DNA of 26,900 nt from positions 1 through 26,900 of IMG/VR virus record IMGVR_UViG_3300027805_000071; one strand, given 5' to 3'. The notes under the pieces were generated by a model. The model ran no database searches. It was not told where the DNA came from and saw nothing but the letters and a program-made list of their open reading frames with translations. Every line of letters starts with the position of its first letter. Within the stretch, counting starts at the first letter, position 1. Positions 93 to 9,079 of the stretch are shown one piece after another. The position numbers and the translations under genes are program-made. This stretch comes from a virus.

Positions 93-155
93 AAATACAG
101 GATACGTTTTGGCTTCAAAGTTGCAGTTTGATAAAATTTGCTGTATGTATCCTTG
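93..155 (-). repeat. Structured spacer A between tRNA-Pro and tRNA-Thr
   Basis: This 63-nt spacer starts (minus strand) with AAGGATACATACAGCAAA and ends with CGTATCCTG. The arms GGATAC/GTATCC (100-105 and 147-152) can pair to close a long loop. A related 64-nt spacer lies between the tmRNA and tRNA-Gly (785-848), with an A-T pair here replaced by G-C there. This suggests a conserved RNA hairpin, perhaps a processing site. The function is inferred. Confidence 0.6.
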
Positions 156-410: not shown

Positions 411-427
411 CAATATGTCAAAGAACG
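411..427 (-). promoter_or_regulatory. boxA-like antitermination element before tRNA-Ser
   Basis: The minus strand reads CGTTCTTTGACATATTG, 11 nt before the mature tRNA-Ser end. The same 17-mer with one A/G change precedes the tmRNA at 1233-1249. GTTCTTTGACA closely matches the boxA core (GCTCTTTAACA) that recruits NusB/S10 in rRNA leaders. A -35 reading (TTGACA) is unlikely because the matching -10 would fall inside the tRNA. The role is inferred. Confidence 0.6.
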
Positions 428-488: not shown

Positions 489-525
489 AAAAAAAGCCTC
501 CCGGAATTTTTTATCCAGGAGGCTT
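489..525 (-). terminator. Strong Rho-independent terminator
   Basis: Minus-strand stem AAGCCTCCTGG pairs with CCGGGAGGCTT (11 bp, one T-G pair) around a 10-nt loop and runs into seven T residues. It ends the upstream unit (tmRNA, tRNA-Gly, mini-gene) just before the promoter of the second tRNA unit. Confidence 0.92.
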
Positions 526-784: not shown

Positions 785-848
785 AGAATCAGGATGCATT
801 GGGTTGTAGTTTACAAGTCTAGTCCAAAGTTGCTGTATGCATCCTTTT
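785..848 (-). repeat. Structured spacer B between tmRNA and tRNA-Gly
   Basis: This 64-nt relative of spacer A starts AAAAGGATGCATACAGCAA and ends GCATCCTGA on the minus strand. The arms GGATGCAT/ATGCATCC (837-844 and 792-799) form 8 perfect pairs. Compared with spacer A, the fifth pair changes from A-T to G-C, so pairing is kept. It is probably a processing or anti-degradation hairpin. Confidence 0.6.
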
Positions 849-1233
849 TGGTGGAGGTGATGGGATTCGAACCCATGTCCGACTAAGGAACCTAAATCCC
901 TCGTTCACAAGCTTAGGCCATTTTTCTTAATGGCCAAAATAAATGGTTCCTATTTTGACATTGTTACCAATAACTGTGTCGAGTTCACTTGTAATAAGGT
1001 AGCCCTCTGAACGAAACCTTGTATTCTCATTCTTTTTAATATCTCACGATGAGTGCGAGACTGACTAGGCTGCTACAGCGTAATCAGCACCAATGAAAGC
1101 CATAGCGTCTTCCCAGGTGAATGAAGATTTCTCTTCGCCTTTTATTGTGTGATAGGTGTTTAAGGATTTCCATCTAATCCTGCTTGCATCAGTAACCTAA
1201 TTTCAGCTTAACCGTCAAAACCTGGTCACCCCC
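849..1233 (-). ncRNA. ssrA: tmRNA (trans-translation RNA), one-piece
   Basis: The tmRNA rescues stalled ribosomes by acting as alanyl-tRNA and then as a short mRNA. The 5' end GGGGGTGACCAGGTTTTGACGG is the canonical tmRNA start. The 3' end has T arm ATGGG-TTCGAAT-CCCAT, acceptor TCACCTCC, discriminator A and an encoded CCA. The acceptor contains the G3-U70 pair that specifies alanine. The predicted resume codon is GGC (1139-1137), about 95 nt from the 5' end and preceded by UAAAA, which fits the UARNN rule. The frame then runs 24 residues, starting GEEKSSF and ending GADYAVAA, to TAG (1067-1065). Typical tags are about 8-11 residues. A GAAGA-GAAA-TCTTC hairpin sits in the first codons. A boxA-like element and a TATAAATA box lie upstream. 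The tRNA-like ends are secure; the tag start is inferred. Confidence 0.93.
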
Positions 1234-1249
1234 AATATGTTAAAGAACG
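1233..1249 (-). promoter_or_regulatory. boxA-like antitermination element before tmRNA
   Basis: The minus strand reads CGTTCTTTAACATATTG, abutting the first G of the tmRNA. GTTCTTTAACA differs from the E. coli boxA core GCTCTTTAACA by one base. A copy with one change precedes tRNA-Ser (411-427). No copy was seen before protein genes, so the element appears specific to stable-RNA units. Confidence 0.6.
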
Positions 1250-8608: not shown

Positions 8609-9079
8609 TTATTTGTTTTTTGTTAATTGTTTTTCTGGTGAAGTTTCTTCTACGATATGTTCAACAATAATGTTTCTAACATATCTTGAAATGGGAATCG
8701 GTCTAATACCAGATTCCATTGATTTTTGAATGATAATAGTATTTAAGTTATCTTCATCCTCGGGTGTTAAAAGAACCTGTAATTTTTTTGTTAATTTCTT
8801 TTTTTGAGGAATCATTTCCTGGACACTTTCGTTATACCCAAACTTAGGATTATCGGATTTGAATTTTTTAATCCAAAATTCAACACGATCCATTACAATA
8901 CCTAAAGATTCGTCTGCATCAAAACGTTCTAACACTTCCCTCTTAAATGAAGTTGTGCCAAAATCTTTTACAGCTCGCTTAATGTATTTTCCGGTACCTA
9001 GATTATTAGGATTATCATTAATTGCATATCCTACATAGGTTTTCCCATTGGATATATTTTCTACTTTAAATATAATCAT
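8609..9079 (-). CDS. GIY-YIG-type endonuclease-like protein with RHH-like tail (156 aa)
   Basis: The N-terminal domain (1-85) resembles the GIY-YIG homing nuclease fold: IIFKVENISNGKTYVGY replaces GIY..YIG, then LGTGKYIKRAVKDFG (27-41), FKREVLERF, VEFWIKKF with the expected acidic residue E67, and GYN. The helix that normally holds the catalytic arginine between YVG and the GTG segment appears missing, so cleavage activity is doubtful. Residues about 98-140 (LQVLLTPEDEDNLN.., SRYVRNIIVEH) look like a ribbon-helix-helix DNA-binding domain. It sits between tube and hub genes, where core virion genes are normally adjacent, and has its own promoter-like box. It is probably a homing-type insertion, perhaps now regulatory. 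Confidence 0.7.
   Translation of the reverse strand: MIIFKVENISNGKTYVGYAINDNPNNLGTGKYIKRAVKDFGTTSFKREVLERFDADESLGIVMDRVEFWIKKFKSDNPKFGYNESVQEMIPQKKKLTKKLQVLLTPEDEDNLNTIIIQKSMESGIRPIPISRYVRNIIVEHIVEETSPEKQLTKNK

Follow-up and report, generated by a model that had tools for sequence, protein, structure and literature searches.

A phage-encoded tmRNA variant with a predicted 24-residue tag that is common to many phages and was not found in the bacteria sampled

The locus described here bears on the purpose of tmRNA in phages, in particular on whether a phage tmRNA with a long predicted tag is an ordinary RNA of the host or a conserved variant with a signal of its own. The window, by which we mean the whole stretch of DNA analysed, is a 26.9-kb virus record, and the original prediction placed near its left end a phage-borne tmRNA whose kind was described as uncommon. 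This description agrees with a published survey that counts tmRNA in 402 phages, 2.3% of 18,146 genomes, and in which the tagging of host proteins by phage tmRNA is already in print as speculation (PMC9004378). Like the window, mycobacteriophages Bxz1 and Wildcat, Bacillus phage G, huge phages and the OM43 phage Melnitz are reported to carry tmRNA in the phage genome (PMC4131195, PMC7162821, PMC9004378), although the Melnitz RNA is two-piece and that of the window is one-piece. Some of the huge phages with tmRNA also carry SmpB (PMC7162821), and mycobacteriophage LordLeafolot is listed with 32 tRNAs and a tmRNA. A 2025 tmRNA database gives 97,179 sequences, 79 of them from phages, with 10 residues as the commonest tag length (PMC11915505). 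In the literature searched we found no report of a conserved long tag common to several phages, and four tag strings gave no match in the paper text searched.

ARAGORN and Rfam agreed on a one-piece tmRNA gene of 385 nt at positions 849-1233 (minus strand), with a match to RF00023 of 104.6 bits (E 3.5e-40; cut-off 47), so that a covariance-model search with tag prediction bore out the phage-borne tmRNA. The tRNA-like ends that had been described were also recovered. CCA is encoded and G3-U70 is present. Of 49 distinct long-tag tmRNAs with 10 different acceptor stems, 48 retain this pair when the 3' offset is picked for best pairing, and the one that does not, L438, seems to have been given a wrong end by ARAGORN. 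On the 3' side of the tag, a pairing that reads CTCAT/ATGAG in the window reads CACAT/ATGTG in the relative L328 and covaries by eye; it may belong to a pseudoknot of the mRNA-like domain.

The tag called by ARAGORN occupies nt 95-169 of the RNA, window positions 1139 down to 1065 (minus strand), and consists of 24 codons, GEEKSSFTWEDAMAFIGADYAVAA, followed by a TAG stop. The GGC at nt 95 sits under the column of the Rfam alignment that we take to be the consensus resume codon. Tag starts in 140 bacterial tmRNAs have a median of nt 97 (5-95% range 92-102, maximum 135), so a resume position at about nt 95, as originally proposed, is normal. The alternative is that translation resumes at the GGT at window position 1091, in which case the true tag would be the 8-residue GADYAVAA and the long call an artefact. 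ARAGORN miscalls do exist, for it assigned a false 23-residue tag to L090, where DNAEYAMAA is evident, and 7-residue tags to four long-tag loci. However, this GGT is nt 143 of the RNA, beyond the tag starts of all 140 bacterial tmRNAs, and the disputed N-terminal part, codons 1-16 (1092-1139, minus strand), is conserved in the manner of coding sequence. With the window included there were 41 distinct tag DNAs encoding 24 distinct peptides, and entropy at codon positions 1, 2 and 3 was 0.38, 0.28 and 0.94 for codons 1-16 and 0.11, 0.11 and 0.81 for codons 17-24. Residues S5, E10, D11, A12, F15, A21 and A24 are invariant (41/41) and A23 is kept in 40/41, a conservation that is partly ascertainment since the patterns used to collect the long-tag loci, on GEEKSSFT or [WF]EDA[ML][AS]F[IV], lie inside the tag; synonymous variation is unaffected by this. 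Substitutions in codons 1-16 relative to L328 were more conservative than if placed at random, with P 0.014 (window) and 0.0024 (L083 type), while off-frame controls were not (P 0.29 and 0.90); between the window and the L083 type P was 0.076. Because third positions are the most variable, codons 1-16 included, we rejected the 8-residue tag, which we find hardly credible. These comparisons demonstrate, at the level of sequence, that the whole 24-codon frame is under selection as a peptide.

A hairpin, GAAGA-GAAA-TCTTC, lies at 1123-1136 (minus strand) over tag codons 2-6. It had been noted from the window alone, and we found it kept in relatives with compensatory changes at two pairs. Within the first 30 nt, a hairpin over codons 1-6 was present in 38 of 41 distinct tags in two registers (28 and 10), and the tags of L396, L433 and L440 fold otherwise than either. 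RNAalifold applied to all tags together did not predict the hairpin, because two registers exist. In the alignment of the first register (17 tags, 16 of them distinct), 80 of 80 cells were paired over the 16 distinct sequences, and at two of the five pairs both partners had changed (A-U to U-A). Compensatory cells numbered five, a count reached in 0 of 500 shuffles (mean 1.1); the number of compensatory pairs (2) was reached in 20 of 500. No covariation was seen in the ten aligned tags of the second register, and the covariation as a whole amounts to two pairs with few independent changes. Mean hairpin energy was -3.85 compared to -1.25 for synonymous recodings that follow the codon usage of the window (0/5000), as measured on nine mutually related hexapeptides. 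The hairpin would also account for the joint changes often seen at tag residues 2 and 6, where E is accompanied by S, and V or D by T. Taken as comparative evidence, these results establish that an RNA hairpin overlapping codons 2-6 is maintained, so that one stretch at the tag start would both encode peptide and fold as a covarying hairpin inside a tmRNA.

Conservation of codons 1-16 could then be for RNA structure rather than for the peptide. In addition to the kept and covarying hairpin, seven other tag windows were put through the recoding test and weak folding signals appeared in two (P 0.023 for codons 9-14 and 0.0135 for codons 19-24). Codons 7-12, however, fold no better than synonymous recodings (P 0.97), and past codon 6 third positions vary, yet E10, D11, A12 and F15 remain invariant in 41/41 tags (partly by ascertainment). 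We regard structure as the sole reason for this conservation as very improbable and retain selection on the peptide.

We searched IMG/VR with an alignment of four tag variants. This matched 217 viral stretches, of which 153 were confirmed and the best 80 of the 153 were read. Within these best 80, a tmRNA was found by ARAGORN or Rfam in 78, and a stop directly follows the tag in 80 of 80 frames. ARAGORN called 65 of the 80 (24 residues in 56, 23 in five and 7 in four), and Rfam, run on the 15 uncalled loci and the four short calls, confirmed 17 of these 19, including 13 of the 15 uncalled. L411 and L436, the two without an Rfam match, are cut by a contig end; L443 and L459 were confirmed though their 5' ends are missing, and L412 was barely at the cut-off with 47.2 bits. 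A pattern scan for divergent relatives gave 17 stretches, 15 of them long-tag; L328 and L330 carry the tag GEEKSSFTFEDALAFVGADYAVAA in a different gene setting, and L327 and L329 were discarded as not being long-tag tmRNAs. Searches by tblastn with three tag variants gave weak matches only (E 5-10) or none in named phages.

A tree calculated with the tag codons removed placed 48 of 48 long-tag tmRNAs in one clade (support 0.995). The comparison set consisted of nine short-tag phage tmRNAs and 45 bacterial ones, one per distinct tag; one of the 45 is from Bacillota and a few are doubtful calls. The mis-ended L438 was left out of the tree. Pairwise identity to the window outside the tag, which we also tried, did not separate long from short tags (68-77% versus 70-75%), whereas the tree did. 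The terminase of the window was matched in 12 of the 48 long-tag records, five at 40% and seven at 25-30% identity, and the other 36, many of which are fragments, gave no terminase match.

A terminase search for close relatives of the window yielded 282 related stretches, and we examined the best 80. A tmRNA above the Rfam cut-off was present in 18 of these best 80 (18 of the first 50, then 0 of 30, the latter mostly short fragments). Seven of the 18 (L083-L089) have the 24-residue tag and ten have 9-residue tags, GNTELAMAA once and DNAELAMAA nine times; the remaining one, L090, is the ARAGORN miscall mentioned above. An exonuclease search gave 29 loci, several on the same contigs, with a 24-residue tag in 13, a 9-residue tag in 4 and no tmRNA call in 12. 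One of the related loci, L113, has 22 tRNAs for all 20 amino acids besides its tmRNA. The sister phages with 9-residue tags (GNTELAMAA, GNAELAIAA, DNAELAMAA) have terminases 82-91% identical where matched, but their tmRNAs fall outside the long-tag clade. In L125, with the tag GNTELAMAA, the tmRNA precedes the same tRNA order. It is as if one allele, long- or short-tag, had replaced the other at the same site.

G004, a relative of the window, shares 97 proteins with the short-tag genome G039 at a median identity of 62%, compared to 20-27 proteins with three long-tag genomes at 27-34% identity. The tmRNA nearest to that of the window outside its own lineage is L444, which is carried by G534. 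Between G004 (L362:9980-12767) and G534 (L471:14121-16926), phages with terminases about 25% identical, identity reaches 75% for two proteins that we read as subunits of ribonucleotide reductase; this suggests a shared host. Since G534 is otherwise distant and holds both L444 and these proteins, the tmRNA seems to move between phages, and the long-tag and short-tag alleles seem to have been exchanged at one site.

The window itself belongs to a contractile-tailed phage, as tail sheath, tail tube, terminase and major head protein were all matched in PHROGs. Its closest terminase is that of an uncultured 462-kb phage, LR756500 (50% identity), a huge phage whose tmRNA has a 10-residue tag, GNNAEMRMAA, unlike the 24 residues of the window. 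The nearest named phages by terminase are PAU (35.8%; host listed as Sphingomonas paucimobilis) and Tenacibaculum phage PTm1 (35.3%), and the named relatives include phages of Tenacibaculum, Flavobacterium and Prevotella and also Prochlorococcus phage P-SSM7 (31%). The best named matches of the G534 terminase are Flavobacterium phage immuto (53.5%) and Microcystis phage Mel-JY01 (52.9%); immuto, which is related to L330 and to the G534 lineage, gave no tmRNA match. A Bacteroidota host for the window is likely rather than established.

Bacteria were surveyed chiefly in Bacteroidota, where 362 of 395 sampled genomes gave a tmRNA match. We fetched 148 loci for tag reading with ARAGORN and obtained a call for 140; one of these is from Bacillota, many are low-scoring tmRNAs by choice and a few calls (L261, L304) are doubtful. 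Tag length was 9-10 residues in 134 of the 140 and 8-12 in 138, close to the 8-10 residues that the original prediction gave for Bacteroidota. In its model match (RF00023), G3-U70, tag start near nt 95 and ..AA end, the window tmRNA resembles one-piece ssrA of the Bacteroidota type. It differs in the hairpin inside its tag frame and in its separate clade, and its 24-residue tag ending in YAVAA, set against 8-12 residues, keeps us from assigning it to that type. The 18-residue tag of L304 was set aside as a doubtful call; L280, a Bacteroidota tmRNA with the 19-residue tag ANNTPVYAMNSVPVYSLAA, looks real and resembles an internal duplication. Mesoplasma florum, like the window, has a long tag, which we take to be of about 27 residues. 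That tag is bacterial, differs in sequence from the tag of the window and is described as being recognised by the cognate Lon (PMC9097571). The description of the window tag as unusually long thus stood with respect to 138 of the 140 bacterial tags read, but not with respect to the published range of 8-35 residues (PMC8012679), within which a tag of 24 is long yet short of the maximum.

A pattern broad enough for 37 of the 41 tags had no match in 395 Flavobacteriales genomes or in 395 Bacteroidota genomes, together 741 distinct ones, and another, fitting only 8 of 41 tags, matched 0 of 395. A scan of 84,980 species with a pattern that covers only 5 of 41 tags gave four matches, none of them a long-tag tmRNA. 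These counts bear on the possibility that the long tag is the ordinary tag of an unsampled clade of bacterial hosts, whose tmRNA phages captured and passed around. A tag common to distant phages could reflect one host group, other phage tmRNAs are said mostly to group with host lineages in the published survey (PMC9004378), and 25 of 25 phage records, many of which are fragments, gave no match to SmpB. The 84,980-species scan is also narrow, and terminase relatives are listed under Sphingomonas (PAU), Prochlorococcus (P-SSM7) and Microcystis (Mel-JY01) as well. Against such capture stand the 741 genomes with no match to the broad pattern, the 8-12 residues of 138 of 140 bacterial tags, and a tblastn search of plasmids that found no long-tag match. 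We consider capture from hosts possible but on balance unlikely. Judged from sequence comparison, the window tmRNA is a conserved variant of a known RNA, with a 24-residue tag that is common to many phages and was not found in the bacteria sampled.

We think it probable that this RNA is a functional phage-encoded tmRNA from a family carried by phages, with charging, rescue, tagging and a role of the extension as outlined here. Following established trans-translation, it would be charged with alanine, bind SmpB of the host and enter ribosomes that have stalled on cut mRNA. Until the long frame is loaded by the ribosome, the hairpin probably holds it in a folded state. Translation would resume at GGC, A-GEEKSSFTWEDAMAFIGADYAVAA would be added and the ribosome freed, and the ...AVAA end would be read by an AAA+ protease of the host, ClpXP first and possibly Lon. 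Failure to find SmpB in the phage records is no proof, because many of the records are fragments. Motif scans of five phage genomes, a weak test, found no Lon or ClpP signatures, and matches to GYVG and HEFGH were uninformative.

The signal read by ClpX is far shorter than a 24-residue tag, and ribosome rescue itself works without a tag. It could therefore be argued that degradation is not the main purpose of the added tag, the proteins having some other fate or the RNA serving only to rescue ribosomes. We hold this to be rather improbable, as A24 (41/41), A23 (40/41) and A21 (41/41) are kept as in proteolysis tags. With a degradation signal as the preferred function, the extra residues would most likely provide a second recognition element, as their conservation suggests, by which the phages would set the fate of rescued proteins themselves. 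Taken to its full extent, the proposal is that a phage tmRNA lineage evolved its own 24-residue signal, absent from bacteria and with a built-in hairpin at the resume site, which uses a second protease or adaptor site to give rescued polypeptides in the infected cell a phage-determined fate; we offer it tentatively and are ourselves doubtful of it as a whole. Two uses put forward in the original prediction, relabelling of host or phage proteins with a distinct degradation signal and supply of tmRNA when the host RNA is lost, are likewise conjectural. An amphipathic helix in the extension was considered and rejected, since the helical moment was not above shuffles in 14 of 15 segments (P 0.049 in the other). 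A search for a partner gene compared 188 predicted G004 proteins to the long-tag genomes G546, G534 and G517 and the short-tag G039; the only one present in the four long-tag genomes and not in the short-tag one was a DNA polymerase B, which we did not retain. A tag conserved at the peptide level, in phages with terminases down to 25% identity and with close sisters that carry another tag, makes a backup of host rescue and an own degradation signal testable against each other, and the long tag offers a natural long degron.

Besides the tmRNA, the left end of the window has five tRNAs, which like it are encoded on the minus strand (ARAGORN), and the next gene after the tmRNA in this array is tRNA-Gly(gcc) at 711-784. 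Downstream of both, a consensus scan found an intrinsic-terminator-like hairpin with a T tail at 494-525 (minus strand), although the scan of 1-1400 gave 2 such elements against 0.8 expected from shuffles. A homing-endonuclease-like gene is located between structural genes at 8609-9079 (minus strand). False 23-residue and false 7-residue ARAGORN tags on phage tmRNAs were seen in L090, L356, L423, L425, L426 and L435; as the calls err in both directions, automatic lists of phage tags need checking. In the set of LR756500, LR756504 and Lak-B5 (L316, L317, L318), the latter two phages have Rfam tmRNA matches and no ARAGORN call.

The tmRNA and tRNA-Gly are separated by a 53-nt spacer at 792-844 (minus strand) whose ends can pair (GGATGCAT/ATGCATCC). 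A second copy is present at 100-152 (minus strand), with the common start GGAT[AG]CATACAGCAA, and L114 and L115 also have the spacer, of which L119 has an altered form. Immediately before the tmRNA, at 1234-1248 (minus strand), is the element GTTCTTTAACATATT, of the form GTTCTTT[AG]ACATATT, which is repeated at 412-426 (minus strand) shortly before tRNA-Ser. Absent at four other long-tag loci checked, it is found in near relatives, with small end changes and before the same two genes, and in L421, and it is similar to the boxA antitermination site known from rRNA operons.
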